This document shows, one piece after another, positions 9,842 to 59,080 of a DNA stretch of 64,000 nt (position 1 is the stretch's first letter; each line of letters starts with the position of its first letter). Source of the stretch: Paramacrobiotus metropolitanus. Taxonomy: Eukaryota; Tardigrada; Eutardigrada; Parachela; Macrobiotidae. Position numbers and translations under genes: made by a program. Where the stretch lies: assembly GCF_019649055.1 (NCBI RefSeq), contig NW_026570288.1, positions 620,001-684,000 of the forward strand, read 5' to 3'. Below the pieces are notes generated by a model. It worked only from the letters and a program-made list of their open reading frames with translations. It was not told the origin of the DNA and did not search any database.

Positions 9842-10312
9842 GACGATGCCAGCCAACCCTCCGCCGTCATTGATCCACGTCTGTGTCAGCGCAAACGTAT
9901 CAAAATCCAGCGCGGTAATGGCCAGGTCCAACAAGCCTCGGTCAGCCAGATCGATCATGCGAAGCAGTGTGTCGTCGTTGAGTGGACCGAGAACGGGAAG
10001 ACCAAGGGGAAGAGTATGAAATTCGCCGCCGTGTGCAAGCTCAACCCCGAACTCAGCCTGCAGATACACCCCGATGGCCAGCGACGTCCCAGTGGGGAGC
10101 GGAAGGTGGCTACGGGGGATGAACTGTCGCTCGAAGGGACCGCCAAGGACGGCCGCACCTCCGCGGCTGGCGGCAGTGTGCCCGGGTCCAACGAGGGGCA
10201 GGAGGAGGCGCCGGATGGGTTTGTCACGCCCGAGCTGCGACCGGAAGACAAAGAAGAATTCTTGGCGCAGGCTCATTTAACCTGGGCGCCCATTGCCCCG
10301 TGGCGTCGATAA
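9842..10312 (+). pseudogene. Kinesin-13 N-terminal domain, orphan fragment
   Basis: The frame reads RIKIQRGNGQVQQASV, then CVVVEWTENGKTKGK, then NPELSL. This is the globular N-terminal domain of kinesin-13 motors (KIF2A/KIF2C family, microtubule depolymerases), where an equivalent VEW-E-G-TKGK motif precedes a LNP-L motif. A plausible acceptor ends at 9889 (CTGTGTCAG), which would make the exon 9890-10312. The frame goes on through a Gly/Ser/Arg-rich linker and ends with TAA at 10310. The motor domain (P-loop, switch regions) is absent from both strands of the window, and no ATG is seen in frame upstream. It is therefore a truncated copy, a lone exon of a gene whose remainder lies elsewhere, or a free-standing domain gene. 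Confidence 0.55.
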
Positions 10313-11826: not shown

Positions 11827-14800
11827 TCACTTGGCCCCACCCGCCTGGACGCCGGCCGCGCCGTTCCCGCCGCCGCCCGTGCCCGGCCTCCCCAGCTTCT
11901 TGGTGCGCTTCTTCCGCCGCTTGAAACAGCAGCACTTCACCTCGTGATCACTGACATCCGTCTCCACGCCGCCGCCGCGGGCGATGGGCGTGTTACTCTG
12001 GCCCCCGGTGGGATCGTCCCCGCCCACCAGCGCCCCGTCCGTCGAGTTCATCACCTGCACACTGCCGCCGGGGGTGGGCAGCGTCTGCCCGGCCGGGCCG
12101 AGGGTCTGTGTGCTCTGTTTGGCCGTGGCGTTCTGGTTCTCCAGCTGCCAGGTAGAGCCTTTTAATCCGGCGGGTTGGCTGTTTTTCTGGGTGCCGCCGG
12201 ATGTGCGGCTGGCCGCTTCGGCCTGCTGCTGGGCGGCGGCTTGTTGTTTGGCATTCCAGTCGAACTCCAGGTCGTCCTTGTAGCCCATCCGGTGGTAGAG
12301 ATCCAGGAAGAGCCGGCGCAGGTAGTCGTAGTCGGGGGTTTCGAAGAAGTCCAGACGGCGCGCGTAACGGAGGTAGATGGCGAACTCCTCCGGGTAGCCG
12401 TCGCACAGGGATTCCACGGGGGTGGCACGTTTGGTGTCGCCGATCTTCTGGTAGCGCTCCTTCAGGGTGTCGGCCTTGAGGCCCTGCCACGGGAGGGAGC
12501 CGCGGAGGAAGTACATGAACATGTGCCCGAGGGCCTCCAAATCATCACGCCGCGATTGCTCTGCAACAACATTAACAACATTCTTGTATTAGAACTAGTA
12601 ACAGGAACATGAAGTGCGTATACTTCTACCTTTACTTAACTTAAATTAATAAAAATATAATTTGCAAATCTTTTTGATTTGGCAGCTATGATTAGTGATT
12701 ACGTAGTCCATATTAATTTAAATGAGAAACAAATACTGCGCAGAATGTACAATATGTATTAAAGATAACACAGACTACTAAAATCAAAAGTTTTACCAAC
12801 CAAGGCATTCAATTTTAAAGTACGCAACATGTAAACTGAATGCTGGAATAAAAAAATTGGTCTGAATAATTATAGTATTTGATCTCAAATTAATTACCAC
12901 AGTACAACACTGGATCTTACGCACGTAAATGATTCTTAATCCTTATAGTCATTTTGTCTGCACTCGTATAATTTCTTCTTTTAAAAATTACAACCTGACT
13001 CAGCATTATCAACCTATTAATTCATAACGAAGTTATTAAAAGCGCTGCAGTCATTCTTGTTGACATGGTTGACTGATTAAATTACCACAAGTTCGTAATA
13101 ATTAGTGCTCATCTACGAGGTACATTATAAAGATAGTTAATGGTAAATTTTATTTATTGTAACGTTATTTACTGTAACACCGCACTGCACAGCTGGTTGA
13201 GTTTGCAAACCGTTGTAAATGACTAACAGTTAACCCATTCTATACAAACCAATTAAAAGTATATTAACGGTATTAACTGACGTGAGAAATCGTAGTACAG
13301 CGGATACAGAAGTCGCAACTACTACAGCCAGTCATGTGCCTACGACAAAAAAACTGATAATGCAATCAATGCATTCGATTACTGAATACAAAAGAAATAA
13401 ATTTTTTGCTATAAAATAAATTAGATGTTCTATCCCCAATCAGAGAAAGGTTTTATATTTTACCGGAAAAGTTGTAAACACAAGAAATTTTTATTAGGCG
13501 ATACGGTGTCAGCATCACATGCAAACAACGACAGACACGCATGTCATTATTGCCGCAGACGTCAATAGGAAAACGCGTTTTTACCATGCGTTTCATTCAC
13601 TTCGTATGCTTTTCGAAAAAGCTGCCAGCCAAACACCGCACGCCATGGCTGCGGCACACACACTCTTGTCAAAAGACCACTCTTTTACGAACCACTCACA
13701 AATCATAGCGCAAATTGTTCGGCTTGGATGCCCGCCAACAGTGGCTTTTTTATTTCGTCGGATTACGTCGAAATATTGACGCCAACAACAAGAACCCGAA
13801 TGCGCACACCGCGCCGATCACGCAACGTCATCGTAATCATATGAAAAACTACAGCTGTAAAAATACACTGCAATGTTATCGTTAAAAACCTTCCATGGTT
13901 TCTCCCTCTGATTACGCATACCGATGACATTTATTATTAGAATACAATAAAAATATATAAAAAATTAAAAAAGGCACCACCAAAATTTTCGCACACAAAA
14001 TCAAAAATTCTTCTTATTTTTAAAATCATACAAAAAATAATAAATATATAATTCTCGAATGAAGCAGTTCTGAAAATCGCTAACTAACATATCCACAACT
14101 TTTCATCTTCGCAGAACAAAAAACTGGAATATATCCAGCACAAAATTTTCTTTTAATAGCGATGCATGATGATAAATCAGACTAGTCATTACAGTACGTA
14201 CAGAGTCAACAGTAACCGGAAAAATCTATTAGCAACCCGTATTTATATCTGCGTCTCTGAAACCCATGCTTTTTTCTTCCCGGCCCGTATTTGTGTGCGT
14301 CTCCCGTCGCCTCAGCATGGCACTGCAGGCAGCAATTAAGCACATTACGCCAGCCAACTCCACAGTCGTAAATAATGTTTCGGCTGCCGATGGGCACAAA
14401 TTCAATTTAAACCATCCACTACGGATAATAAGGGTAAGCACGCACAGCAGGCTCTTCCACGAAAACAATCAAACGCTATCGCAGGAGCTGGCTGGTGTTT
14501 TATAAGACCAATCAAATGAATCAAATCGTAAGCCGATTATTTTTCACATATCATTTTACACAAATATTTAAATTATTACAGTTCTATATCCGTTTAAAAA
14601 TAAAATATACATACTTTAGCTCGCTTGCAAAAAAATACAAAAAGGAAAAAAATTACTCAACGAAATTATTTTTTAGATATTGCAAAAATACTCGTAGTTA
14701 ATGGACAAAAAATCTTGCCAGCAAAAACATTCAGCTGGATTAATGGGAAATAAACTTATTTAACGAAAATGAAATTGTACATTAAACTAAATCAAATTTT

Positions 14801-17800
14801 AATATTGTAAGATTAATTAATGTGCAAAAAATCTCATTAGAAAAAAATCTCGCCAGCAAGAAAGTTTAACTGGAAAGCGAGAGAATTAACCGATTGTAAA
14901 TATAGCAAAAATAATGACGACTTCAGACTTTGAGCCACTCTCAGCCAGTAAAACTAATAAAAATCGTTTCCTTCGAACAATAGCATGCAAGTGCAAGAAC
15001 ACGCGCTTTTTGACCTTGAGAAGCCAGCGTAAAAATCAGCTGACGTCAGCCAGACATGTCTTGTACATCGATTGCATTCTTCAGCTTCGCGGAAAGGCAG
15101 CAAAACTGGCACAGACAAGTGCCCGGTCGCATCGGAAGCCGCGACACTTGGCCCGGAAATCTACCAACCAGAGTGTAATATTCCATCCGCTGAACATGTA
15201 CTGGGCCCTGCTCCAACTCAATGGCGATTCAAGAGGACACTGAACAATCCTCTTTGTTATCAATGATTGCTCCCAATGTTCAAAAAATACCACCTTCTCA
15301 ATGGGTTTCATTCAGTGATTTTCGAGGGCTCATTTAAGTAAATATTTGAACTCGACCGAACTATAATGCAATAAAGAAAATTGCAAAAAACCTCGCGTGA
15401 AAGCTTTTTTCCTACCGAAAACGGAGAAATGCATTAAAATCAATGCTCGACTCCTCATCTAGCAAATTTACAAGTATCATTTCAGCAAACAAACGCTCCT
15501 TCGTGAAACAAGCTCCAAAAAATTTTCAACAGATCCGAGAAACTGATTAACACAAATTATCAACCTATTCGTTTAAAATCAAAACTAAAATATTCGTTTT
15601 ATAAAAAAGATAAAACGATGACTGAGCATCTATGAAACTACACATAAAATGCTTCACGATTCTCGTTTTAAGCCACAGATCATCTATCACGAAACTGAAT
15701 TATTCGAAAAACGAATACAAATAATAATAAAAACGTATGAAAATTGTCACAACAAAAGATTTCTGAAAATGAGAAATTATTACAAAATGTCACGAAAAGG
15801 TTAAAAAATTCTCATACTTGAAAATTTAGCACACATTAAACGCAACCGATCAGCCACCGCAGTAGTACAGTATTACTGTAACACAAACGCTCATTTTACA
15901 ACGATCAACGGAATATATTCGAAATACAATACTCATAAAACGAAGAAAAAAAGGCGGATGAAAAAGCGTTTTCAGATCAAACCGGAAGTCAACTGTCAGC
16001 CACTTTCCACCCACCCACCTTTGCCCATGTGGGTATTAATGCTCATGTAGCGTGCCGTGCCGGTGAGGGATTTGTGCTCCCGGTAGGGAATATGGCGCTG
16101 CGTATCGGGATCAATGTATTCCTTGGCCAGACCGAAGTCCACCACGTGGATACTGGTGTGCTTCTTGTTGGACTGCCGGCCAATGAGGAAGTTCTCCGGC
16201 TTGACGTCGCGGTAGATGAGATGCTTGCCGTGAATGTACTCCATCCGCGACAGCAGCTGGACGGCCAGCATCAGGACCGTCTTCAGGGAGAATTTCCGAT
16301 CACACAGGTCGAACAGGTCCTCCAACGACGGACCCAACAGCTCCATCACCAGGGCATTGTACTTGCCGCACGGGCCAAAGTAGTAGACTTTCGGTATGCC
16401 CTCTGCAAAATACAAATCAGTACGAATATTAAACGAAATTTTCTCAAAGTGCAATTTATTCTGAACAACATCCAACGAAAATTCTATAATTAATTTGTTT
16501 TTTTTTAAAAATCTATTCCAGAACTGATTCTTTTTGCCTGCTACGCATTTTCAAAATTTAAAAAAACTGTTTTAGACTTACAGTACAGTAAACAATGGAC
16601 AATATTTTCCATAAAACTCAATACACTTTAATTTTTTAAACATAATTTATTTTCAACTATATTAAATAAAATTAACTAATCAACTAAATTTCAAAATTCT
16701 GTCAGAACTAATCCTTTTTGTCTGCTGCAAATGTTCAGATTCAAACGATATTTTTTATTTACAACGAAGAGCTATATTTTTCATAAACATTTTAAATCCG
16801 CTTCAATGGCCGCTAAAATTAGCACTATTTTCACAAGTATGGTGCGATCAATTGCAAAACCTTTCCCTTTCTCGATTGTTTACAGCTTTTCTTCGTTCGA
16901 CATTTTCTTTCCCAATCGATACGATCCGCCCAGAGCCTAAAATACTCTTTTAACCGAAAAAATCCCTCAATGGACGAGCGTCATAAATCCGTTGCTGGCA
17001 AATGCCTTTTCCAAATTTCATTACGCTATACAAATTATTTACTGGCATTTTTAGTCACACGTCGCTACCAATCCATCACACATATTTGCTCTACAAATTC
17101 CCCCAAATTAAATAACAGCGCAGTCGACGCACACCATGCGCATGGGTTCCGCCGACTATTGCGTAGATGGAACAAGCTCATTTTCCATGCGATTCCTTCA
17201 CGCCAGTCTGCACCAGCCATCAGTCACCGATCCACAGCCAGAAATATTTCCCATTAAGGGGGGCTACGGTCAATATCTATTTATGGAGATGGTAGAAATA
17301 TTTCATAACGACATTTTCATACATCAAAATAACCCAACCACGCAAAATGTCGATTTGTTCACCAATTACAGCCAATCTTACACCGTCAGGAATTTTTACT
17401 GCAATCTCGCATTTTTCAAGAATAAAGCAGCAGTGGATATCGAAAGGCAGACAACGTGTTAAGCCGCTAAATACAAAATTCGAAAAATAATTACAAGAAT
17501 TACTTATTGTTAGCCAAAATTATTTTGCAACAACAGACAAAATAATAAAATTAATTTTACATATGCGGACTTCTCGTTTTTTTTCGAACTGATCCAGCAG
17601 GGCCTTCGTCGTATCACTAATTTGAACCTTCAATCCTGCCAAGACAGTTTAATTAGGTTTACAGTTGACTTCTTTTAATTCAGTATTTCCTTTTAGTTTA
17701 TTATTTTAGACCAAACGTACAAAACTTTTTCGACGCTCCAGAAAATTACCTTCATTATGAGTATCACTTCTCCAGTTTCCCTAAATGAAATTTTTAACCC

Positions 17801-34967: not shown

Positions 34968-36849
34968 ATGTCGCAAAACTCTCATGGGGAACGACGAGGT
35001 ACGGTCCGGGGTGTCGTTAACTGCATGAAAGGAACGTTAGCCAACGGGGATCTGTGTGATGTGCAGTTCACAGTGGGGCTCGATTATGGTCAAGCCCAAT
35101 CTTTCCGCTCACACAGGTAAGTTTGTGGTTCGCCACTTTACTTCATCATCAAGCTTGTTGCTTGATTATCAGTTTCTGATAATCTACTTGCAAATTGCAG
35201 GTATGTCTTGAGTATGCGGAGCGATGTATTCCATGCCATGTTCAACGGTAGTTTGGCTGAACGTTGTAAGAAGGCCATCAATATCCCCGACGTTCATCCC
35301 GAAGCTTTTGCTAATATGCTCAGGTAAGTGATGGAAATGCTTCCAGCTGCTAAGGAATACGGATCGCCCTCAGAACACTTTGCTCTTAATTTCGTGAAGG
35401 GTACTTTCGTGTATTGCTATCAACTTTAGTCTTTGATGCATTTGCAGCTACGTGTACACGGATGAAGTGCAGGATCTCAACGAGGGAAACGCATTTCGAA
35501 CCCTGGCCTGTGCCGATAAATACGACTTGCCGCTGCTGGTGGACATGTGCTCCAGCTTCATTCACAGTCATCTCAACACCGACAACTGTCTGGTCCATTT
35601 GGATGATGTACGTATGCGTTTGAAATTTTGGATCACAAAGATTTCAAACAGATTTAATTCTTTCGTACTTCATGTTTTATAAAATATTTTACAGGCTATT
35701 CACTATGGAGTTTCCAGTATTGTGGCCAAATGTCTTGAGTTGGTCGACGCTTCGAGTCAAGCCATTCTGCAGTCGAAACAGTTCGCATCGTTACAGCGAG
35801 AGGCGTTGATGTTGATTCTGCAGCGGGATACGCTGTCGGCTGACGAGAATACGGTTTACCAGGCTGTGGAAAGGTACAGTGTAAAGGTTGACTTTTGTAT
35901 AGCAAAAATGCACAGAAGATTTTGTGGTTACCAGTGTTTCGGTGCGATGCTGAAAAGTTTTAAAAAACGTAAGTTTTTTGCGCTGCAAGCGAAGGCTAAA
36001 AATACGGTTTTATCTTTTGACCAAAGTGGATACCGCATGCCTTTTGAACTTTTCTATTAAACCGTGAGTCTGCCGGTACGACGGGAATATCTTAAAAAAT
36101 TGTATAGATATATTATGTAAATGTCTGCTGTCTTAGATGGGCGGCGGCTAATTGTGCGCGCAATCACGTGGATCCTACGATGGTCAACCGGCGCGAAATC
36201 CTGGGCGACGCATTGTTCCTTGTCCGTTTTCCCTTGTTGAGCGACGCCGAACTAGCTGACGGTCCAGCTGAAGTAAGCGGTCTTTGCTTGTGCAGTACAT
36301 CAGACTTTGCATTTTTATGATAGACTCGTGATCTTCGCGTTCTTGTAGAGCGGTTTGCTCCTGCGAAAAGAATTACTGGACATCTTTTTGTACAAGCATG
36401 CGGTCAAGAAGCCTGAACTGCCGTATTCAACTTCGCCACGCAACAGCGCCTTGATCCGCATCGATACATCCGAATTTGTGGTCATCAAAGATATGGAAAA
36501 GGTGTTTGTGAAACATGGCGGTGATAATTGCTGGTTACCTGGTGAGGTTAGAGGTGTTGCGGGATCGCGCTGTGTTGTTTCGCTGTGTGGTAAAGAGAAC
36601 CTCTCGCAACATAAACCGGAGAACGTCATCCGTGCTGCGGACATTCTGAAAACCGGTCAGAAGGTGTATTATGTCACCGAAAAGACTCGAGAGCTGGCAG
36701 TTTACTGTCTGGAAAAGGATGAGTCTGCCTTATACCTGATTCAGATCGGTGATCGGGATTACAATGTCAAATTCGCAGAGTTAGCCATCCCGGACTCAGA
36801 TGTAATCCGGAAAACGAAGCCTAAGATCGCCTATATTCCTCGCGGCTAG
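34968..36849 (+). CDS. BTB-BACK protein with Tudor-like C-terminal region
   Basis: Six exons (34968-35116, 35201-35323, 35448-35607, 35695-35873, 36137-36272, 36349-36849) give 415 residues, with all phases consistent and introns of 76-263 bases. The BTB domain (about residues 20-120) shows LANGDLCDVQFTVG, SFRSHRYVLSMRSDVFHAMF and YVYTDEVQ. The BACK domain follows with LACADKYDLPLLVDMC and ANTVYQAV-like NTVYQAVERWA, as in BTBD2/3/6, which are CUL3 substrate adaptors. After FLYKHAVKKPELPYS the family normally has a PHR domain. Here there are about 125 residues with two short barrel-like units instead (VFVKHGGDNCWLPGEV, then GQKVYYVTEKTRELAVYC), resembling Tudor/SH3-type modules. The ATG at 34968 follows an in-frame non-ATG open stretch. 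The BTB-BACK call is firm; the Tudor-like description is inference. Confidence 0.85.
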
Positions 36850-39607: not shown

Positions 39608-39614
39608 TATAAAA
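39608..39614 (+). promoter_or_regulatory. TATA box of secreted peptide gene 1
   Basis: TATAAAA after GAACCGGTG, 106 bases before the ATG at 39720. The TTAACTCAGTTG about 30 bases downstream resembles an initiator. Confidence 0.6.
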
Positions 39615-39719
39615 ACCCTTTGCATCACTTAGTAATTTTAACTCAGTTGTAAGATACAATAACTTCATCCCGAGCTTCGTTACTATCTAAATTATAAATT
39701 AAAGCCTTTTGCTGCTAGA

Positions 39720-40069
39720 ATGCATAAGCTGACCTTCTACCTATTTATCGCGGTGTTGGTGGCAGTTTGCCATGCCAGTCCACGGGATCGCCGGCAGGTT
39801 GTTAATGCGGTATGTGTTCACACTTCACGGGGCCGTGGTGCAGATGGTTATGATACTTCCCGTAATTATACGCAATGCTCTTTGCTCAACGAATTTGTTT
39901 TTAGGCGGTTGATGCGGCAAAAGCCGTGGGACACGGAGTGGCGGCGGCAGGCGATGCGTTAACCCTGCAAGGAGCCAAAGCCGAGCACCAGGGCGGGCGC
40001 GCCGTTGACCGGGCTGGCGATGCCGTCGGTGACTTGGGCCACGCCATTTACAACCCGAATAAGCCGTAA
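39720..40069 (+). CDS. Small secreted Ala/Gly-rich peptide precursor, copy 1
   Basis: Two exons (39720-39809 and 39905-40069, phase 0, 95-base intron) encode 84 residues. Residues 1-19 are a signal peptide (LTFYLFIAVLVAVCHA). It is followed at once by SPRDRR, a furin-type R-x-R-R site, and then Q, which could cyclise to pyroglutamate. The mature chain of about 58 residues (VDAAKAVGHGVAAAGDALTL..., ending IYNPNKP) has no cysteine. It alternates Ala/Val with Lys/Asp/Gly in a helical, amphipathic-looking pattern. It has its own TATA box and poly(A) signal. The family is unknown to me. An antimicrobial peptide, a secreted lipid-binding or stress-protective protein, or a neuropeptide-like hormone are all possible. 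Copy 2 is at 41411-41851. Confidence 0.85.
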
Positions 40070-40276
40070 AACGAAGGTCAACACCGAATGCCTTTGACCA
40101 CGGATTGAGTCGGATACCGCTGTATAAATTGTATATACGCGTCATGAGATCGAAAATACGAATGGATGGTCCGTGGACCGTGATGCAGAAAAATTCCTTT
40201 GCAGTGCTTTTTTTTAAGAATCTGAATTACATGCATTTTTTCCTCATGTTGCTGTCACCTGTGGTGGAAAATTTCT

Positions 40277-40282
40277 AATAAA
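40277..40282 (+). terminator. Poly(A) signal of peptide gene 1
   Basis: AATAAA, 208 bases after the stop codon, is the first canonical hexamer downstream. Confidence 0.5.
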
Positions 40283-41367
40283 ACTGTTTCACTCCGAAAC
40301 TGATACGAAGTTTTAAACTGATAACCGTCCGGGTATACTAATACTTTATAATAGGTTTTACATGTACATGCAGCATGTGACCATAATATTACTAAATGCT
40401 GTATTTTATAATAAAAAGGGAAATCCCAGAAGTAGATTTCTATATTTTGCCTCCCTGCCAATTTCGAAGTAGTACATGCTACTCTAGGCTCTGCCTTCGA
40501 TTCGATGCAATTAAAAAGCACAATATCCGGTGCACAAAAAATAAAAAAATAATATTGGTACAGGTCATTTAATTACTCTGCTGTAGCAGCATGCTGATGC
40601 AAATGAAGACACATTATCATTTTGTATTATGGACTAGGGTGCGTGCTGACGCTACAACGAAATAAATCAAATAATTATTTCGATGTTCAACCTGGCAGAG
40701 TGGAATCATAATAAAAACTTATACTAAATGTACTAAGTACAGTAATTGGGTACTCGTACAGTCGTACTGTACCTCTGTGCGGTGCAGTTGTTGGCCCTCT
40801 TAAAACCTAAAGCCGTTCAAAAACGATGCTTTTATACGTTACTTACTAGTGTTGTTTTGGTGTGAGTTACATTCCAAGCAACGGTATCACAGTGTACAAC
40901 TGCAGCGTCATGATGTTGCGCCTCGGGTACAATGCCGTGCAGTGCTTGAAATCATTTTTCTAAAATGTTCATGAGCAGAAATTTCCAAAACGTGTTTGTT
41001 GTTATGAAATAAATCATATTTTTTATACGAACTTTTGCACGGTAGCTTATTCAACGAACAATTTCTTGTACTTATTTATGGCCCGTTTATTGTACTGCTA
41101 TAACCGGACATAGACACCGGCCTTGCCTCCACGACTTGGGTGCGTAATGCGCCAGTACAAGTCGGACAATAATACACAATTAAACTATACTTAAGTACCG
41201 GTAATAATAACTGCAGATTTCGCGTATTTCAAATTCCGGGTAGGCATACGTGGTGCTGCTGTATAGAGCTTCAAAAAAATGCGGGAAAGTTCCAAAAAAG
41301 CCGTATTTAATCATGTGCGTTCCAGCCGTTTCGATCACTTTATTTATTGCATCAGTAGCAAGCAGAA
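40283..41367. other. Spacer between the two peptide genes
   Basis: AT-rich with no third copy of the peptide and no other coding signal. GTAC-rich stretches occur near 40735-40780. Confidence 0.4.
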
Positions 41368-41373
41368 TATAAG
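41368..41373 (+). promoter_or_regulatory. Possible TATA box of secreted peptide gene 2
   Basis: TATAAG, 43 bases before the ATG at 41411. This would leave a leader of only about 12 bases, so a more distant promoter (for example the TATAGAG at about 41261) is also possible. Confidence 0.3.
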
Positions 41374-41410
41374 CTGCAAGAATTCGTTATCGATCTCCGT
41401 TATCGTTATC

Positions 41411-41851
41411 ATGCAGAAATTACTCTTATGTGTATTCCTTATGCTGTGCAGCATTGTCTTTTGCCAGGGCAACCCGCGAGAACGCCGGCAACTAGTAAAT
41501 TCCGTAAGTACAAAAATTAATACTAATCAAAAGCTTTGTGCGTTCGTGAACAGTTATTATTTATTAATATTACTGTATTACAGAGTACACTGTACCATAA
41601 TCCTTTTTAGATCACACCCAATTAAATTTTCTTTTTATTTTATCGTAACGTATGCGCATACATTTGGCTCAATTGTGGGCACATTGCAGGCAATCGATGC
41701 CGCAAAATCGGTCGGGCACGGACTAGCGGCAGTGGGTGATGCGCTGACGTTGCAAGGCCACAAGGCGGCTAACCAGGGGGGAAAGGCTGTCGACCGTGCG
41801 GGTGATTCTGTTAAGGATTTGGGAAAAATTGTTTATAACCCAAAATCATAG
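41411..41851 (+). CDS. Small secreted Ala/Gly-rich peptide precursor, copy 2
   Basis: Two exons (41411-41503, 41690-41851, phase 0) again give 84 residues. The signal peptide is KLLLCVFLMLCSIVFC, the furin-type site NPRERR, and the mature chain begins QLVNSAIDAAKSVGHG and ends VYNPKS. Over the 51 alignable residues of the second exon I count 38 identities with copy 1, and the exon structure is the same. The motif DALTLQG and the motif AVDRAGD are unchanged. The 186-base intron is a multiple of three and has no in-frame stop, so retaining it would give a longer protein. The ATG at 41411 was chosen because the signal peptide begins there; the frame is open further upstream. Confidence 0.85.
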   Translation: MQKLLLCVFLMLCSIVFCQGNPRERRQLVNSVSTKINTNQKLCAFVNSYYLLILLYYRVHCTIILFRSHPIKFSFYFIVTYAHTFGSIVGTLQAIDAAKSVGHGLAAVGDALTLQGHKAANQGGKAVDRAGDSVKDLGKIVYNPKS

Positions 41852-41997: not shown

Positions 41998-42003
41998 AAT
42001 AAA
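41998..42003 (+). terminator. Poly(A) signal of peptide gene 2
   Basis: AATAAA, about 147 bases after the stop codon. Confidence 0.5.
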
Positions 42004-49524: not shown

Positions 49525-50553
49525 TTCAAACTTTCCCGATGGAGCAGAAAGTTTAATTTAATTTGATAGTACAATTAAATTGATGGTGCAGGATGGTTGG
49601 TGGTCAACTCGAGAGAGCCCACATTTAAGAAAGTCCGTTAGGAGCCACTAGTGTGGTGCAGGAGGTCTGCGTTCCAGTTCTGACCTAGGGTAACCGAGTC
49701 CCCCGGTTTGATTGATGTATAGATTGATTCGCACTTAGCGATATATATTTTGGGTGACAATACGGACTGAGAACAGTATAGGCTCTTGAAAACTGTTCGT
49801 GTATGCGGCACTTTACGTGTCTATGATTGAAAAAGCACCGTAAGACCATTCGAGGTCAAAATTTCCTTTCATTTTATTTTTTCTTTTCTGAACCGGGCAA
49901 GCCAGAAAGACTACGTGAATTTGAACGGCAGAACCAGCAGAATCAGCTGATCGGAAATTGTAAGTCAAACGTGCGAAAATTCGCAGTATATTTTAGCCGT
50001 TCCTTGATTCTGAATCTTCGTAAAAATGTCGAATTTTGTAAATATGGCGTATCCGAGTTAGCGGAGTAGCCATCGTACTACGATTTTGGAAAATTTTCGG
50101 TAATCAACAGAGCAGATATAGCTGTCTCTTGTTGTGAAACGCAGTGTCACTGTTAACTGGAAATCAGTCACAGTGTTGTAACTAGCGGTTAAAAACGATT
50201 CGCAGTTGAAACCTTAAAGGTCAGCTGTAAATACGAGTTGTTTACACATGCTTGAGTGCGTGTTGTAGCAACGAGATTCATACGAGTTGTTTACGCATGC
50301 TTGAGTGCATGCTGTAACAACGAGACTTTCGGACGTGTTGTTTCGGTACCGCGGAGGTTGGTATTGAGTCAGCGTCGTCCTAACGAAACGGTGTTGTCAG
50401 GAGTCACAGCTTTGAGTAGCGTACGTGTATTTCTGTCAAGAGCCGTGGGTCATACGAGTTGGTTGATTCGTCAATCAACGGGAACAGTGTAACTTTCACT
50501 TTCTGAATCCAGTTGTAATTGGTAAGGTTAGTCGCGGTTGCATTGCACACAAA
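49525..50553. other. Retroelement leader with a 49-bp tandem duplication
   Basis: The noncoding leader between the primer-binding site and Gag. Two copies of a 49-base unit starting ATACGAGTTGTTTAC lie at 50231-50279 and 50280-50328. Each contains a CATGCTTGAGTGC(G/A)TG word that could fold back on itself. Confidence 0.6.
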
Positions 50554-51561
50554 ATGTCAGAATCAGCAGATTTAACTGTGAAACGAGATGGCTTTTGGCC
50601 ATTGAGAAAAGTTGAATCAGATAGATTGCAGTCGAAAGCAGTTGAAAGCGGGTTTGACACTCGTTTTCAGTTTCCGAAGAAAGTTCCCCTTGGCTTAATG
50701 TATAGGGCAGTAGGGTTAGAACCTCCGGAGAAAAAGAGCGCGTATTGCAGTCAACAATGGGTTGACTGGGAAGACAAAAATTCAACGTTGGTAAGAGCTC
50801 CGAGTTACTATAGCACTTGGTTCTCGCACGAACGGTCTATCCCGTCAGCTTATTTGAATATGTCAGAAGCAGAGTTTAAGGCAGCGAAAGAATGGGCGAC
50901 CTTGAATGTCACTGCGTACGAGGCAGAAGTGCAGCAAAGAAAGGAGTCAGGTACTGGTAAGAAATCTCGGGATACCATAGTTATGTCAGATGGGCAGTTA
51001 AACGCCTCGGTAATTATTGAGAATTCTGGGAATGCGGTAAGTGAGTCGTTGTTGGACTTGGAAGATAGTTCGGCTTCGAGTGCACAGAAAAATGGCATGA
51101 CTCTGTCCAGTATGCAGTTGATTTCAAGTCAGTCAGTTGGTACGGTTAATCCTGGGAAACAGGTAACTCCGTCAGTGGTAAATCCAGATCAAGTGGTGGA
51201 TCCGAGGAGATCGGTGATGTCGCAACTGGTAAATCCACATTCAGTAGGGCAGTCAGTAAATGTGCAGAATGCAGAAGTAGTTGGAAATGCAGTTGAAAAT
51301 TTGAATTCAGTAGCGGTAGGGAATTTTGTAACTCCGTCCAATATGGCGAGAGAACGTAGTGCAGCGGCTCAAGTGAGCGATGAACGCGTGTTTGCTATGA
51401 GCAATAATCAGAATAATAATACGGTTGGCAGTAATTTCCTTGGTAATATTACGATGAGAGAAGGAACTCCTTTTTCTGAAAATTCAGATGATGAAAATAA
51501 TACGGCGTTTAATTGTGAAAAGTCGTTGTTGGATGAAGATATTCCTTTGATGAAAATGTGA
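50554..51561 (+). CDS. Gag N-terminal region of a Ty3/gypsy-type element
   Basis: ATG 50554 opens a 335-codon frame that ends in TGA. The first 130 residues are folded-looking (RDGFWPLRKVESDRL, WVDWEDKNSTLVRAPSYYST), then a long Ser/Asn/Val-rich linker with repeated VVNPDQ/LVNPHS words, and an acidic end. No match to a matrix domain could be named. Coding continues in another frame a few bases before the stop, through a TAA at about 51649, into the next frame, so this is one Gag broken by a frameshift. The plus strand is very C-poor, with codons ending mostly in A or T. Confidence 0.6.
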   Translation: MSESADLTVKRDGFWPLRKVESDRLQSKAVESGFDTRFQFPKKVPLGLMYRAVGLEPPEKKSAYCSQQWVDWEDKNSTLVRAPSYYSTWFSHERSIPSAYLNMSEAEFKAAKEWATLNVTAYEAEVQQRKESGTGKKSRDTIVMSDGQLNASVIIENSGNAVSESLLDLEDSSASSAQKNGMTLSSMQLISSQSVGTVNPGKQVTPSVVNPDQVVDPRRSVMSQLVNPHSVGQSVNVQNAEVVGNAVENLNSVAVGNFVTPSNMARERSAAAQVSDERVFAMSNNQNNNTVGSNFLGNITMREGTPFSENSDDENNTAFNCEKSLLDEDIPLMKM

Positions 51562-51651
51562 ATAACCTTTTGCATCCTCTTCAGTCAGATTTGCGGCATT
51601 TTATTTTTGAAAATGATTTTGATCCTTTAAATCAGGAATTTGCGCAATAAG

Positions 51652-53354
51652 TAAGTGAGGTTGACGCTAAGTTGAAAGCTTCTAAATCGGAGCAAGAGGC
51701 ATTAGCAGTCACTCGTGATTCATTGGGTACTATGATTCGGTGTACGAAAAATTATGTTGCATTATGTCTCAGGCAATTGCAAAATAGCAGTGAAATTAAT
51801 CGGTTGAATGAAATTTTGTCTAAAGACGATAAACTGAAAAATAAACTGCACAGTGATATTTCGGCTCTAAGGCAGCAGTTAACGGCAGTTCAGGCAAGTA
51901 ATGCAGAACATGAGAGAAATGTTCGTGCACTTTCGAGTAAGTGTCAGGTGAATGAAAAACGTATTCGCGATCTTGAGGAGGAAGATTCTCAGTCGTCGAA
52001 ATTAATTTTGGAAAATCAGGAGCTTAGTGCTCAGTTGCGGTCAGTAAATGAACAGTTGCAGAAAATCAAGGCAGAAGCGTCGAAATCACTTGGTTCGAGC
52101 AATTTGCAGGCTTTAGCTGTTTTCAAAGAAAATGAGAAGAAATTGCTTTTGGAAATTGAGCAGTTGAAAGTTAATTGTAAATTGGAATGTAATGCGAAAA
52201 TTGTTGCGGAAAAAGATTTGAAATCGGCTCTGAGCAGGGAACGCAAGCTTAATGCAACGCTTGAAGAGAAAGAGAAATTAATTCATTCAGTTGGTGTCAG
52301 GATTGACGGTAAAGATTCCGAAATTCTGGATTTAATGCAGCGTATGGAAAAATTGCGAGTTGAAGCAGAAGAATTGAAAGGTAATCAGATTTCGCATGAA
52401 AGAGAGTGGAATTTTGAACCTGAAGTTCGTGTAGGTACGGGTAATTTGGCTTTTAATCAGCCACCGGCTTACACTAATATTTCGCATATGTCAGGTCAGT
52501 CTCAGGGTTTTGTACCAATGAGCAGTAACGCGAATGTGAGTAATCACGGTAGCGGAAGCAGTCAGTTTTACGCGGGTAATTCAGTCGGTAGCAGCAGCAA
52601 TCAAGTTTGCGGGGGTGAAAACTCTCCCCGAGTTCCCTTAGCTTCGCGTAATGGCAGTGGTCAGTTAAACGAACCGAGATCAGATCAGCCTCGTTCGGCA
52701 GCATCTCGTGTTAGGTATCAGTCGCAAGATAGGCGGCATACGCAGGTGGTTAACGTAGGGCATGTTCCCTTGATTAATGTGGAAATACCGGTAAATAGCG
52801 GTATCGATGAGGACGGTAATGTCGACATGGAAGACGTGAATGCAGCGCCGGCAGGTGGTTTGGCTGCACAGCAGAATGCGAATCCAGATTGGCTTGGTGT
52901 GATTAAAATTATGGCGGAGGCGATGAAGAATGCAAACTCCAGCAAGCCGAGTAATGTGATGAAATTACAACCGTATGAAGGTAAGCGGAAGTCAGGTTCG
53001 ATTGAACATTGGCTCACGCAAGTTAATCAGTGTCGATTGTCGAACGGATGGAGTGACAACGATACGTGCAGGCAAGTTGTCGGTGCATTGAAAGGTAACG
53101 CAGTATTATGGTTCCAAGGTTTACTTCGCGATAAACCAAATCGCGAATGGGAAAATTTCTATAAGAAAGAAATTCTTGAACATTTTAATATTGCGACGTC
53201 TCCAGCAGATATACGTAGGGAAATGACGGCAAGAATTTTTCGTGACGAAGATACAGTTGATAACTATGCGGATAGTTTTATTAAGTGGTTTAATGACTTG
53301 GAATTAGGTGACATTGAGAAAACTAGCATTTTGCTTGAAGGATTTGAAAAGTAA
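51652..53354 (+). CDS. Gag coiled coil and retrotransposon-gag domain
   Basis: A frame without its own ATG. Residues about 10-240 are a long coiled coil (heptads of Leu/Ile with Glu/Lys/Gln, for example LILENQELSAQLRSVNEQLQ). A Ser/Asn/Gly-rich linker includes QVCGGENSP. The C-terminal 130 residues are a retrotransposon Gag (capsid-like) domain: MKLQPYEGKRKSGSIEHWL, ALKGNAVLWFQGLL, WENFYKKEILEHF, MTARIFRDEDTVDNYADSF. It ends in a double stop (TAATAA), but homologous-looking coding goes on in a shifted frame (KPDWYRHLF). A coiled coil of this length in front of the Gag domain is unusual. Confidence 0.7.
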
Positions 53355-53428
53355 TAAGCCAGATTGGTACAGGCATTTATTTATCATGAATATTACTGAT
53401 CCGTATGAATTGATTAAGCATATGAGAG

Positions 53429-54685
53429 TTGGAAAAACTACAGAATATTCTCGGTGGTGAGAAAAAGTCTCCTGAAACTCAGCGTGTAAGTGCAGGCGGT
53501 ATCAATGGTTTCAGCGGATTTAGCGGCACTTTCAGAGGTGGCCGTGGTAACTATGGAAGTCGCGGTAATTATGCAGCGCGAGGTAATTCCTTCCGTGGTC
53601 AGTATTCAGGGCGTGGAAATTATGCACGTCAGTATGGTAATTTCGGTAATAATGGCGGTAACTGGAGTGGTCAGCCTGTTCAGATGGTTCCACCAGTCTA
53701 TCAGAATCCGGTAGTTTTGCAGCAGCCTGTGTTGTCTTCAGTACAGCAACCAGTGTATGCTCCAGTACAGATGTCGAATCCAGTTCAGATGTCGAATCCA
53801 ATGCAGATCTCAGATCAGCAGTCTTTTGTTCAGATAGCGCAACAGCCAGGTAGTATGGCGATGGCCCCGGTAAATAGCGGTCAGCCAGTTCAAAATTTTC
53901 AGCCCTTGCAGAATAATCAGAATATGATGAATTCACAGAATTTTCAGAATCAGGGTAATTTTAGGCAAATGGCGCCTATGAATAATTTTCGCGGACAGAA
54001 TAATTTTAGATCGAGATTTCAGAACGGTAATAATTTTAACCGCGGTGGTTTTAATGGGAATAACGGTAATGGAAATTTTCGTCCTCGGTTTAACGGTAAT
54101 AATAATTTCGGTAACGGTGGTAATAATTTTGGAAATAATGGCGGAAATTTTTCGAATGATATTCGAAATGATCAGCAGCAAAATAGTGGTCAGTTTAATG
54201 AGAGTCAAATTCAGAGAGATAAGTGGCGATTGTCGAATGGTAGGGAAATTTGCTATAAGTGTCATGATTTGCATGCAGCGTCAGCATGTCAGCGACCTTT
54301 AGCGTATCCTCGATTGATCGAACCGACTACAGAAATGTTGCGACGTTATGGTGCGCAGGTAAATGTGATTGAATTCGAGTATATATGGCAGAAGAAACCA
54401 GCGCAGTGTAATACGACGGAAGTTATCGATATGTCGAAGTATCCAGCGTCAGAATTGGTAATTCATAAGCCGACGTTAGACGCGCAGGCGTGGTATTGTA
54501 CGATTGACGTGAATTATAAGCAGGTTAAGGTCATGATCGATACAGGTTCGAGTATTTCGATAATTCCTTTTCGATTAGCGAAGAAGTTAGATTTGCATAT
54601 TTTTCAATGTCCGAGTCATGTTAAGGGTATGTTGGTTAATACGGCGTATAATGGTCAGCATGCAGTTGAACCTTGTCGACTGTAA
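53429..54685 (+). CDS. Nucleocapsid-like region and aspartic protease
   Basis: A 418-codon frame. The first part is rich in Arg-Gly-Asn (RGG/FRGG-type repeats) and in Gln-Pro (QPV), then very Asn-rich. A zinc knuckle CYKCHDLHAASAC (C-x2-C-x3-H-x4-C) is at 54251-54289. It is followed by a retropepsin start, VKVMIDTGSSISIIP, with the DTGS catalytic motif at about 54539. The flap-side end of the protease (HIILGMDFS) is found in a different frame at about 54751-54780, after the stop at 54683, so the protease is broken by a frameshift. Confidence 0.7.
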   Translation: MEKLQNILGGEKKSPETQRVSAGGINGFSGFSGTFRGGRGNYGSRGNYAARGNSFRGQYSGRGNYARQYGNFGNNGGNWSGQPVQMVPPVYQNPVVLQQPVLSSVQQPVYAPVQMSNPVQMSNPMQISDQQSFVQIAQQPGSMAMAPVNSGQPVQNFQPLQNNQNMMNSQNFQNQGNFRQMAPMNNFRGQNNFRSRFQNGNNFNRGGFNGNNGNGNFRPRFNGNNNFGNGGNNFGNNGGNFSNDIRNDQQQNSGQFNESQIQRDKWRLSNGREICYKCHDLHAASACQRPLAYPRLIEPTTEMLRRYGAQVNVIEFEYIWQKKPAQCNTTEVIDMSKYPASELVIHKPTLDAQAWYCTIDVNYKQVKVMIDTGSSISIIPFRLAKKLDLHIFQCPSHVKGMLVNTAYNGQHAVEPCRL

Positions 54686-55030
54686 TTACTATTCATGAAT
54701 TTGGTACGGCATTTGAGCACACGTGTTTGGTAAGCACAAATTGCGATCGCGATCATATTATTTTGGGAATGGACTTTTCGTCACGAAGCCTTTTATTTTG
54801 GACTTCAGTTCTATGACTTGGCGTATGATTCGTCAGAATTCGTTAGCAAAACTTCATGAGAATGCGTTAAGGAAGACTTGCGATATGGATGAGATTGTCA
54901 GAGAGCATAATTTCGTTGAGTTAGCTCCAGTGCATACGTATTATGGTAAGTCGATTCCGGCTTTAATGCAGGCGAACATGTTGGGTTTGCTCCGTATGCA
55001 GAATTTCTTCCGTATAAGACAGCGCATAAT
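54686..55030 (+). pseudogene. Frameshifted protease C-terminus and following segment
   Basis: The reading frame changes at least twice here. The protease C-terminal motif ILGMDF is in one frame and the next stretch (FILDFSSMTWRMI, then AKLHENALRKTCDMDE) in another. The second looks like the residues that usually follow the protease in this class. Confidence 0.5.
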
Positions 55031-55918
55031 GTGTACATCGGTGCACCAGTCGATATTTGTCAGATGGAAATGGATTATGCGGTGAGAAAATGGCCGAGAG
55101 TTTCAGATTCGATTTGTTATGCAGACGTAGATAATTCGGAATCTCAGTTGAGTAATAATCAGCCAGCAGGTGGCGGTAAGCAAGTTTGCGGGGGTGTGTC
55201 TCAGCCCACCACCCAGCAGAGAGAAGTTACGAATATTACGGCAATTAATCGTAGTGTAATGGATGCGGAATTAGCGGATGTGCATAAACGGTATGATAAA
55301 TTACTTGGTCATGTTGACAAACCGATAATCGTGAACGATCAGAATTTTCGTTCAGTTAATAACGGCAGAATTTTTGAGGAAGAGGTTTTCAGTATTACGA
55401 ATTCAGGTGAACAGCAAGTTTGCGGGGGTGTGTCTCAGCAAGTTTGCGGGGGTAATTCTTTCCCAGCCGATAGCAGTATTAAGCAAGTTTGCGGGGGTGA
55501 GAACATGCCAGAGAATGTGCGTAGTTATGCGGTCCCACCCGCCCAAACCCTTCAGAATAATTCGCAAAATAGGAGTATTGTGCAGCGACGTACTTTTCCC
55601 GATTCGAATATGGTTAAGCGTAATCAGCATTTTACGGAAAAAGGTATTAATCAGCCGATGGTTAATAACGGTAAATCCTTGACGATTGCGGGTAAAAAAC
55701 TAAACGTTGTTCCAGTCGAACAAAATAACGGTAAGAGAGTGCCTGTTAAAAGCGCACAGTATAAAGTTGGTTCGGATTGGAAACGATGGATGATACCGAG
55801 ACTTGATCCGGAAACGCGTGAGATGAAACCGAGACTTGCGGATTTAATAAGGTCACGTTTTGGCGAGCACAGCAGAGACCGCAGGGTGACGCTAAGTGTT
55901 GGTATCATTTGTACTTAA
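55031..55918 (+). CDS. Post-protease region with CGG repeats
   Basis: A 295-codon frame with no catalytic domain. It is rich in Asn, Gln and Ser and carries four copies of a QVCGG motif (KQVCGGVSQ, QQVCGGVSQ, QQVCGGNS, KQVCGGENM), encoded each time by CAAGTTTGCGGGGGT. The C-terminal part is basic (KRWMIPRLDPETREMKPR). In a complete Ty3/gypsy element the reverse transcriptase should be near here. No YxDD motif or other RT block was found in any frame. Confidence 0.5.
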   Translation: MYIGAPVDICQMEMDYAVRKWPRVSDSICYADVDNSESQLSNNQPAGGGKQVCGGVSQPTTQQREVTNITAINRSVMDAELADVHKRYDKLLGHVDKPIIVNDQNFRSVNNGRIFEEEVFSITNSGEQQVCGGVSQQVCGGNSFPADSSIKQVCGGENMPENVRSYAVPPAQTLQNNSQNRSIVQRRTFPDSNMVKRNQHFTEKGINQPMVNNGKSLTIAGKKLNVVPVEQNNGKRVPVKSAQYKVGSDWKRWMIPRLDPETREMKPRLADLIRSRFGEHSRDRRVTLSVGIICT

Positions 55919-56607
55919 ATCCTCATAAGGCAGATACTAATTTCATTAAGGAAGAAATAAATTGGTTTACGATTTACGATGGAGTTTTGTGTCATAAGAA
56001 TGAAGCGCGAGGCGCCAAACCACGTATTTTTGTACCGTATCATTGGCGTGTTAAATTAATTTTAGCAGTACATGCGGCAGTTAAGCATGAGAAAATTTTG
56101 AAAGATACTACGACTTATCGTCTTTAAGTTGAAAAATTTTATTGGCCGAATATGCTAGTTGAAATCGATCATGTGGAAACTAATTGTAAGTTCTGCTATC
56201 CTGAACATCGGGATACGCGTCCTCCGAGACATCCTGATCCGACAAGTAACGAGTACTTGCAGTCAGATTTATCGAAAGATGAAGTAGCGACTTGGGTTGA
56301 TCCGAAATACATGAATAAGTTCGCGGTGTTGCAAGGAGAAACTGGAGATTTTGTCGATGGAAAATTTGTACCGGCTGAAGGCAGTTTCGATGTTGACCTT
56401 GGTAAGGCACCAGTCTCAGCGGAAGACCAGCGTGCTATGGCGAGAGCTATTTCTCGAGTGGACTTTGACGGTCCGATTCAGGTAAATAAACCGGGAGTAA
56501 TTCGAGATGTATTACCAGATAGTCTGTTGGATCCGATTAAGCGGAATAGAGTAGACGCGGCATTTAAGAAGAGTGATAAGCCGACGAAGGCTAAGAAAAA
56601 CGGTTAA
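55909..56607 (+). pseudogene. Integrase N-terminal zinc domain, copy 1, and tail
   Basis: One frame with a single in-frame TAA at 56125-56127. It reads IYDGVLCHKNEARG, then VPYHWRVKLILAVHAAVKHE, then EKFYWPNMLVEIDHV, then NCKFCYPEH. This is the H2C2 (HHCC) zinc domain of retroelement integrases: two His in the AVH...KH part and C-x2-C in NCKFC. The integrase catalytic core (D,D-35-E) does not follow. Instead there is a tail (TRPPRHPDPTSNEYLQSDLS..., ending KPTKAKKNG) that is charged and unlike any domain I know. A paralogous copy occurs at about 58680-59080. Confidence 0.6.
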
Positions 56608-56609
56608 AA

Positions 56610-57941
56610 ATGACACTTTCAGGAATAGCACCGGCAGATGATGATGAGTGGTCAGTTCCACCTGTTCAGTCGAATGTTACGCAAATCGTTAGACAGTCGA
56701 ATGTTGAGAAGAGGAATCTTCGGAATGGGTCTGTTTCTCGGAATGAGTCTGTGTTTCGGAATGAGCCTATATTTGAGTTAAACAAAAAAGTACCTGTGGT
56801 GAGCAATGAAACGGCACGATTTGTGAAGGATGCGGCAAAAGAAACGGCAGTGAACAAACCGGCAGTTGATTTTTGCATTATGGAAGTTTTTCCTCAATTT
56901 GCGGTTGATATTAAACCTCGGTCTAAAGGTGTGATTCGTGCACGCATAAATAAGTCCGAATCTGAAATTGCGGAAATGGTGAGAAATGGTTTGGTTGAGC
57001 AAAATTTTGAGTATGAAGGTAAACGGTTTGGCAACTTGCTTTTATTTGACGGTGTGATTGATGTTAATGAAAATGGGTGTTTGCGTATTCCTGTAATGAA
57101 TTTGTCGGATAAAACTGTGCAAATTGGCGGTAATCTATTTCTGGGTGAATTAGATCCTATTGACGAGATTTATGCGGTCGGTTCGGATAAATTTAACGAG
57201 AATTTTTATGATGCAGTTTGTACCGTTGCAAAAGCTTGCGAGTGTTGGGCGAAAACACTCATTAATAGGAAAGCAGGTGTCGATAATATCGACCGAGATA
57301 CGGAGGAAATGGTTAGCAAACTTGAGTCTAAACACTTGGTGTCCGATTCAACTTTTGGAACTCTAGCGGTGATCGTACAGAGGAGTAACGGGTCAGTAAG
57401 TCTAACTGACGATTGGCGGAAATTATCGCATAGGATAAAAGATTTACCGAGACAGGAGTGTCAAGTAGCTTGTATCGAAGCAAAGAAGGTTAGTAGTGTA
57501 CCACAAATTCAGAACAGTAGGCAGGAAGTCGATATTAGTATTGAAGGCATGTTTGAGAGTGTGCCTGAATCGGAGCTAAACATAGTAGTTCTGGGAACTC
57601 AAAAGGTCGTAGAAGTCGGGCCGACTCCGACAGTACAGGCAGTTAAGGAAGTTGTTTCAGTACCGGCGGTACATAATCAGAAATCAGTAGAAGTTAATTC
57701 AGCAACAATGAAACGGTTAGCAGATTTTAGTAAACTAGGGTTAGTTCCTCAGTATCCGATTGAAATTCAGCCGAGAAATAGGGGAGTTATACGTGCTCGT
57801 ATTAATAAATTTGGAAGTGAATTATCAGAATTAATTAAGGAGGATTATTGGAGCAATTTTGAATATGAAGGCAAAATTGCGGCTTATTATTGTTTTGTGA
57901 CGGTATTGTTAAGTTTGATGAAAACGGTTTTTGCGGTATAA
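56610..57941 (+). CDS. Pol linker-domain protein, two copies of the pre-RT domain
   Basis: ATG 56610 follows the previous stop by three bases. After an Asn/Arg-rich start (NVEKRNLRNGSVSRNES), residues about 90-190 match the domain lying between protease and RT in Ty3/gypsy polyproteins: VDIKPRSKGVIRARI, LLLFDGVIDVNENGCLRIPV, MNLSDKTVQIGGNLFLGELD. A spacer follows, and from about residue 370 the domain begins again (IEIQPRNRGVIRARI), then breaks by frameshift near 57895 into the next frame. The RT that should follow such a domain is missing both times. Confidence 0.6.
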   Translation: MTLSGIAPADDDEWSVPPVQSNVTQIVRQSNVEKRNLRNGSVSRNESVFRNEPIFELNKKVPVVSNETARFVKDAAKETAVNKPAVDFCIMEVFPQFAVDIKPRSKGVIRARINKSESEIAEMVRNGLVEQNFEYEGKRFGNLLLFDGVIDVNENGCLRIPVMNLSDKTVQIGGNLFLGELDPIDEIYAVGSDKFNENFYDAVCTVAKACECWAKTLINRKAGVDNIDRDTEEMVSKLESKHLVSDSTFGTLAVIVQRSNGSVSLTDDWRKLSHRIKDLPRQECQVACIEAKKVSSVPQIQNSRQEVDISIEGMFESVPESELNIVVLGTQKVVEVGPTPTVQAVKEVVSVPAVHNQKSVEVNSATMKRLADFSKLGLVPQYPIEIQPRNRGVIRARINKFGSELSELIKEDYWSNFEYEGKIAAYYCFVTVLLSLMKTVFAV

Positions 57942-59080
57942 TTGTTGTGAATAATTCGGACGAGTCAGTCGATTTATCTGAAAATTTTTATTTGGGAAAC
58001 GTTGTTCCTGTTGAAGAAATTTACTCAGAAGGCGAAAATTACTATGAAGATAATTTCCACGATGTCATTTGTAAAAAACTACAGGCATGTGAGTGTAATG
58101 CAGTTAATATTTTTAACAAAAGAAATGGCGCTAACAGTATTTGTATTAAAACTTCGAATGCTTTTTGTAATAATGGAAAGTCAGTCTGTATTGTTAAAGA
58201 TAGTAAGGGAATACATAAAGTAGCGGACGATATTAGGAAATTAACTAATGAGGACTTTTATTGTTATTTGCCGAAGCAGACAGTTGCAGCTAATGCGAGT
58301 CCAGAAATTATTTTTGACGGTGTAGTTAGTAGCGGCAGTCAGGTACAATATGTTGATGTGTGTACAGCTGAGAAACCTACGATAGTTCATAAGCAGGTTG
58401 AACCGGAAGTTAGTTCCGTGGCAGTACAACAGAACGTTGTTAAAGAGTCTGAAGTACCAGTAAATGTAACGGGTTATGCGGAAGTACCAGTAGAGTTGCG
58501 TGGTAAATACATACCACCGAAAGAAGTACCTAAGAAAGCAGAAGCACAGTGTATAGAAGTTGTTAAGAATGACGAACCTAAAGTGAAAAGTAAGCGGTTA
58601 GGAAAATCGAATAGTTTGCCTAAGTGGACTAGACCTAAGACGAATGACGGCGATGAATTTTACTTTCCATCAAATGCAGAATGGGACAGTAAAGCCTTTT
58701 GGTTGGAACAACAACAGAGGTGTGTAGATATTCAGTCATGGCGTAATTTTTATAAAAATCCAAAGAATGTGGATTCTGAGGCAGTACGTGCGGAAATTAA
58801 CTCGTTGTTAGTCGAAAATAATGAACTCGTAAGACATAAAACGCCAGGTAGTGAGCGGTACAATTCGCATATTTTTATTCCTTTTCAGTGGCGTGAGAAA
58901 CTTATGTTAGCTACGAATAAACGGGTTAATTATGAGAAAGAATTTGGTCCAGATATGACGATATTTAAATGTTTATATGAAGTTAAGAGATATTATTGGC
59001 CTAATATGAGAGAAGAAATTGAAAAGTTTGAAAGCAAACTTCCTGGGCATATTTTTAGGCAGAAATGGGGTACGAGTTGA
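57890..59080 (+). CDS. Second linker-domain half and degenerate integrase N-terminal domain
   Basis: A frame of 396 codons overlaps the previous one by about 50 bases. It begins with the second half of linker copy 2 (VKFDENGFCGIIVVNNSDES, LGNVVPVEEIY). A Val/Lys/Pro-rich spacer follows, then a block aligned with integrase N-terminal copy 1: HIFIPFQWREKLMLATNK, then KRYYWPNMREEIEKF. All four expected zinc ligands are gone: the His pair is replaced by Asn and Tyr, and no C-x2-C follows. The fold signature around WP-M is kept. It ends at TGA without an integrase core. Confidence 0.6.
   Translation: MFCDGIVKFDENGFCGIIVVNNSDESVDLSENFYLGNVVPVEEIYSEGENYYEDNFHDVICKKLQACECNAVNIFNKRNGANSICIKTSNAFCNNGKSVCIVKDSKGIHKVADDIRKLTNEDFYCYLPKQTVAANASPEIIFDGVVSSGSQVQYVDVCTAEKPTIVHKQVEPEVSSVAVQQNVVKESEVPVNVTGYAEVPVELRGKYIPPKEVPKKAEAQCIEVVKNDEPKVKSKRLGKSNSLPKWTRPKTNDGDEFYFPSNAEWDSKAFWLEQQQRCVDIQSWRNFYKNPKNVDSEAVRAEINSLLVENNELVRHKTPGSERYNSHIFIPFQWREKLMLATNKRVNYEKEFGPDMTIFKCLYEVKRYYWPNMREEIEKFESKLPGHIFRQKWGTS

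Follow-up and report, generated by a model that had tools for sequence, protein, structure and literature searches.

A conserved tandem gene pair for putative small secreted helical peptides in the tardigrade Paramacrobiotus metropolitanus

Moricins, antimicrobial peptides of moths (Pfam PF06451), follow a signal peptide with a strongly cationic amphipathic helix that carries a basic tail, while attacins and gloverins, furin-processed glycine-rich peptides of insects, are Cys-free chains released from an R-x-x-R pro-segment. ApoA-II, as generally described, runs from the signal through a short basic pro-segment to an N-terminal Gln, found as pyroglutamate, and a Cys-poor amphipathic helix. Among proteins linked to drying, LEA group 3 chains have a typical 11-residue period, and the tardigrade-specific SAHS family consists of secreted lipocalin-like β-barrels of about 15 kDa.

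The pair of P. metropolitanus genes described here can be set beside each of these. With moricins it shares an amphipathic helix placed after a signal peptide and, locally, a similar motif around AAK-x-VG-x-G-[VL]-x-A; unlike them, its chain is near-neutral rather than strongly cationic (net charge −1 in copy 1, +2 in copy 2), conserves Asp, lacks the basic tail and is preceded by an R-x-R-R spacer. The pro-segment, the absence of Cys and the Gly-richness recall attacin and gloverin, but the tardigrade chains are much shorter, predicted to be helical and without a Pfam match. The order of parts is that of apoA-II, whereas there is no sequence match to apoA-II or apoC, and the pair has a heptad rhythm and a small-residue face. 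LEA group 3, SAHS and CAHS proteins likewise offer Ala/Gly-rich amphipathic chains in an anhydrobiotic animal, SAHS being secreted as well; in contrast to LEA group 3, however, the pair lacks the 11-residue period (lag-11 z −0.25) and any LEA match, and in contrast to the SAHS barrel it is a short predicted helix.

Organisation of the two genes

The locus lies at 39720-41851 on the + strand of the window (the whole stretch of DNA analysed, 64,000 nucleotides) and holds two tandem two-exon genes. The original prediction had given these coordinates, a common exon plan and two 84-residue precursors, and all of this agrees with our translation of the spliced coding sequences. The features are as follows.

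39608-39615, + strand: TATA-box-like TATAAAAA upstream of gene 1 (by eye)
39720-39809, + strand: gene 1 exon 1 (sequence)
39720-39776, + strand: gene 1 signal peptide MHKLTFYLFIAVLVAVCHA (predicted by eye)
39777-39794, + strand: gene 1 spacer SPRDRR
39795-39809, + strand: gene 1 mature-chain start QVVNA
39810-39904, + strand: gene 1 intron, 95 nt, phase 0, GTATGT..TTTTTAG
39905-40069, + strand: gene 1 exon 2 AVDAAKAVGHGVAAAGDALTLQGAKAEHQGGRAVDRAGDAVGDLGHAIYNPNKP and stop (translation, pair comparison, AlphaFold)
40277-40282, + strand: AATAAA polyadenylation-signal-like hexamer of gene 1 (sequence)
41411-41503, + strand: gene 2 exon 1 (sequence)
41411-41470, + strand: gene 2 signal peptide MQKLLLCVFLMLCSIVFCQG (predicted by eye)
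41471-41488, + strand: gene 2 spacer NPRERR
41489-41503, + strand: gene 2 mature-chain start QLVNS
41504-41689, + strand: gene 2 intron, 186 nt, phase 0, GTAAGT..ATTGCAG
41690-41851, + strand: gene 2 exon 2 AIDAAKSVGHGLAAVGDALTLQGHKAANQGGKAVDRAGDSVKDLGKIVYNPKS and stop (translation, pair comparison, AlphaFold)
41998-42003, + strand: AATAAA polyadenylation-signal-like hexamer of gene 2 (sequence)

Both precursors consist of a hydrophobic leader, recognised by eye, a six-residue R-x-R-R spacer (SPRDRR and NPRERR) and a chain that starts with Gln; this chain has 59 residues in copy 1 and 58 in copy 2 and contains no Cys, in line with the predicted Cys-free chain of about 58 residues. The motif PR[DE]RR|Q stands directly before the mature chain in both copies, as in convertase-type secreted peptides, with the leader assigned by eye.

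The intron takes the same position in the two genes, phase 0 with GT..AG borders, after VNA in gene 1 and VNS in gene 2. Gene 1 needs to be spliced, because its intron length is not divisible by 3 (remainder 2). The intron of gene 2 is divisible by 3, stop-free and in frame, and only 0.9% of its shuffled versions are stop-free; a retained-intron product is therefore possible, and retention of 41504-41689 would add a hydrophobic stretch, giving a longer open product. Since the splice plan is shared by the two genes, splicing is the natural reading. Close to the genes, κB-like sequences (GGGGAAATCC at 39428 and a consensus site at 40418) were too few to carry meaning and were set aside.

Conservation, further copies and genomic surroundings

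In exon 2 the copies are identical at 38/51 residues, with DALTLQG and AVDRAGD unchanged, so that our recount matches the predicted one exactly; the alignment scores 51, where shuffled sequences reach at most 13. From the Gln onward 41/56 residues are identical, compared with 9/25 in the pre-pro part. The Asp columns (5/5) and Gly columns (8/9) are conserved, while Lys, Arg and His vary. No alignment above shuffles was obtained for the introns and 300-bp flanks of the two genes. The three codon positions of exon 2 are 75/88/35% identical, and GC at third positions is 64% and 52%, against 38% in intergenic DNA. Over the 56 codons of the mature chain pS is 0.83 and pN 0.17; because the synonymous distance is saturated, omega is stated as well below 1, which is far from the dN/dS near 1 that the original prediction had named as speaking against itself. 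The leader and spacer are looser than the mature chain (dN 0.45, dS 1.2 for the pre-pro part). Judged from these two sequences, copy 1 and copy 2, this is an old tandem gene pair under strong purifying selection.

Throughout the genome (169.8 Mb, 533 contigs), protein searches with E up to 10 and two codon-degenerate patterns returned this pair and one near-copy on contig C292, a non-match in such searches being short of strict proof of absence. The exon-end pattern P-R-x-R-R-Q-x-V-[NK] likewise occurs only at the pair and the near-copy in the 170-Mb genome. The near-copy, at 1-4500 of C292, duplicates the locus region with 97% identity; over 4577 aligned columns it differs by 23 substitutions and 55 indel events (44 deletions), coding and non-coding parts alike, and both of its genes carry frame-shifting indels. 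Nanopore reads had been assembled under settings that retain heterozygous variants, and the result was then haploid-merged and polished. Because of the indel excess, equal in coding and non-coding DNA, and this assembly procedure, we take C292 to be a duplicate that was not fully polished; a pseudogene allele or gene decay was rejected, the indel pattern fitting an under-polished nanopore contig, and the copy was left out of the dN/dS estimate. A candidate third paralogue on contig C112, found through the DALTLQG pattern, proved to be unrelated sequence.

Elsewhere in the window lie an exon with a KIF2A-like N-terminal domain at 9767-10309 (+; E 1.1e-16), from a kinesin-13-type gene; a casein kinase 1 gamma-type gene of several exons at 11830-16550 (−; Pkinase E 8.6e-16, CK1gamma_C E 2.1e-7); and, upstream of the pair, an exon with a BACK domain of the BTB-Kelch type at 35683-36057 (+; E 2.4e-7). 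The long open frames at 50467-59080 (+) form a retroelement-like unit, with a coiled-coil gag-like frame and an Asn/Gly-rich frame; the latter matches two aspartyl-protease-like models, PF13975 at E 1e-4 and PF13650 at E 1.3e-4, each time below cut-off. With a SAHS sequence as query, matches appeared in a cluster on contig C3 (33-64% identity, with 3e-19 as the best E) and in a single exon on contig C78; the peptide locus, on contig C68, gave none. The C3 cluster of SAHS-like exons extends over 446414-467166 (−), one of its frames having an internal TGA, and a fatty-acid-binding-protein gene was found during the same search.

Helix, periodicity and family searches

AlphaFold2 gives one helix for both copies, spanning residues 2-49 of exon 2 (48 residues), with mean pLDDT 86.7 from the two-row alignment and 89.8 from the single sequence; this is no proof of a stable helix, because pTM reaches only 0.47-0.51 and Ala-rich chains are often predicted as long single helices. 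The helical moment of residues 1-54 exceeds that of 1000/1000 shuffles in each copy and is best near 99-100 degrees, which bears out the predicted amphipathic character, and the charged residues are mostly on the polar side of the helix. Self-similarity is strongest at lag 7 (z 5.05), followed by lag 14 (z 3.0) and lag 22 (z 2.9). Written out in heptads, position 3 is mostly Ala/Val/Leu and position 7, in the first half, mostly Gly; in copy 1 the motif V-x-x-A-G-D-A-[LV] occurs at mature positions 17-24 and 39-46. An 11-residue repeat of the LEA/synuclein type, first read by eye, was dropped, as lag 11 is flat and lag 7 dominates. The description "Ala/Gly-rich" holds for copy 1 (25% A, 15% G) and fits copy 2 less well (17% A, 14% G). 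GRAVY is about −0.15 to −0.2, so that the chain is not strongly hydrophilic.

No family in the collections searched claims the pair. The full precursors match the Pfam Moricin model at E 0.0015 and 0.01 (18.7 and 16.0 bits, below the gathering score of 27.6), the mature chains alone at E 0.92 and 0.46 (9.7 and 10.7 bits), and six precursor versions with a shuffled mature part have no match. On these scores the weak signal needs leader and helix order together and is not membership; among the papers searched, none joined tardigrades with moricin. Three further matches were set aside as products of hydrophobic or Gly/Ala composition: the F0F1 ATP synthase c-subunit model of NCBIfam (E 0.00086, 19.8 bits where the cut-off is 135) and Pfam Collagen_mid and UL20A. 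LEA and apolipoprotein models in Pfam gave no match at E up to 10, single-sequence and profile searches of the PDB nothing convincing, and scans of prokaryote and viral contig collections no relative. By sequence comparison, then, the pair is an apparent orphan, without a family in Pfam, NCBIfam, the PDB or the prokaryote and viral collections; the animal sequences covered are those of this genome, and "tardigrade-specific" is for that reason not established. The predicted undescribed, furin-type secreted pair of an animal lineage thus stands, in a tardigrade genome, under purifying selection and with no family above cut-off.

Candidate functions

The most plausible reading is an amphipathic helix that binds lipid, a surface or itself. 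Our preferred form of it, put forward tentatively and as somewhat short of an even chance, is that the old tandem pair encodes small secreted peptides which may act outside the cell as a self-associating or surface-coating helix in a structural or protective role. The leader would be removed in the ER and a furin-like convertase would cut after R-D/E-R-R, at sites predicted by eye; the new N-terminal Gln would probably cyclise to pyroglutamate. The free chain of about 58 residues would fold as one long helix, or as a hairpin, whose narrow Val/Leu/Ala/Gly stripe could pack on a second helix or on an extracellular lipid or cuticle surface, in an arrangement set by the conserved Asp/Gly pattern. 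The spacer might prevent helix association in the secretory pathway before release. Self-association or surface packing is what we infer from the sequence; against helix packing, L26 lies on the polar face and G28, G35 and G36 could break the helix.

One rival would have furin-released amphipathic helices attack microbes as host-defence peptides, in the manner of moricins or of the glycine-rich insect peptides. The precursor plan is like that of insect antimicrobial precursors, and the weak Moricin match to both precursors, lost on shuffling the mature part, points the same way; a survey of tardigrade immunity found immune effectors to be little known and left novel antimicrobial peptides open (PMC7056985). 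Yet the mature chain alone reaches only E 0.5-0.9 against Moricin, is conserved rather than fast-evolving, and combines a charge of −1/+2 with conservation of every Asp while Lys and Arg vary. In HeliQuest, no window of copy 1 has D above 0.68 and none of copy 2 above 1.34, against four of six in magainin 2. Because the apoC-I helix is also low by this factor, the low values speak against charge-driven membrane attack and not against lipid binding generally. We therefore regard host defence as unlikely, and a self-associating or coating helix most likely to be preferred over a membrane-lysing antimicrobial.

Small lipid binders of the body fluid, resembling exchangeable apolipoproteins and coating lipid particles with their helix, seem improbable to us to a similar degree. 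The apoA-II-like order of parts, the high helical moment of both copies, amphipathic by prediction only, and the lag-22 signal with its repeated motif in copy 1 would suit them. No Pfam apolipoprotein model matches at E up to 10, however; the apolar face is rich in small Ala, Gly and Val with few large aromatic or aliphatic residues, and lag 7 outweighs both lag 22 and lag 11.

It is distinctly unlikely that the peptides protect against drying outside the cell in concert with the SAHS proteins of P. metropolitanus. The species is anhydrobiotic (PMC8277472), its genome has the SAHS-like cluster, though on another contig, and the chain is putatively secreted, Ala/Gly-rich and amphipathic. But it has neither LEA nor SAHS similarity, lacks the period typical of LEA group 3, is not strongly hydrophilic by GRAVY, and comes from two genes only, whereas this species has expanded LEA, CAHS and SAHS families. 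A convertase-released signal or pheromone, for example one that is sex-biased, is very improbable: the convertase site and N-terminal Gln typical of hormone precursors are present and the mature chain is strongly conserved, but it is a long, helical, Cys-free chain with no match to known families in Pfam or the PDB, and the precursors, ending YNPNKP and YNPKS, have no GKR-type amidation signal and no repeated short peptide copies.

The functional interpretation first offered is thus partly supported. Its antimicrobial side is the weaker part and is disfavoured in the classical cationic sense, and a LEA-like stress-protective role has lost ground with the missing 11-residue period and LEA match.

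The self-associating or coating helix that we prefer has a bolder extension: a tardigrade-specific family of secreted peptides whose Ala/Gly heptad helix self-assembles into an extracellular coat or gel. This is a long shot, but if true, such a coat would be an outside-cell counterpart of the cytosolic CAHS gels. If ordinary, the pair would be one more lineage-specific secreted peptide. As it stands, a conserved orphan pair for secreted peptides is a modest discovery. The peptides are small enough for synthesis and for direct tests of whether they bind lipid, assemble, protect on drying or act against microbes, and the pair, if expressed, would represent undescribed, strongly conserved secreted peptides in an animal group whose secreted effectors are poorly known.
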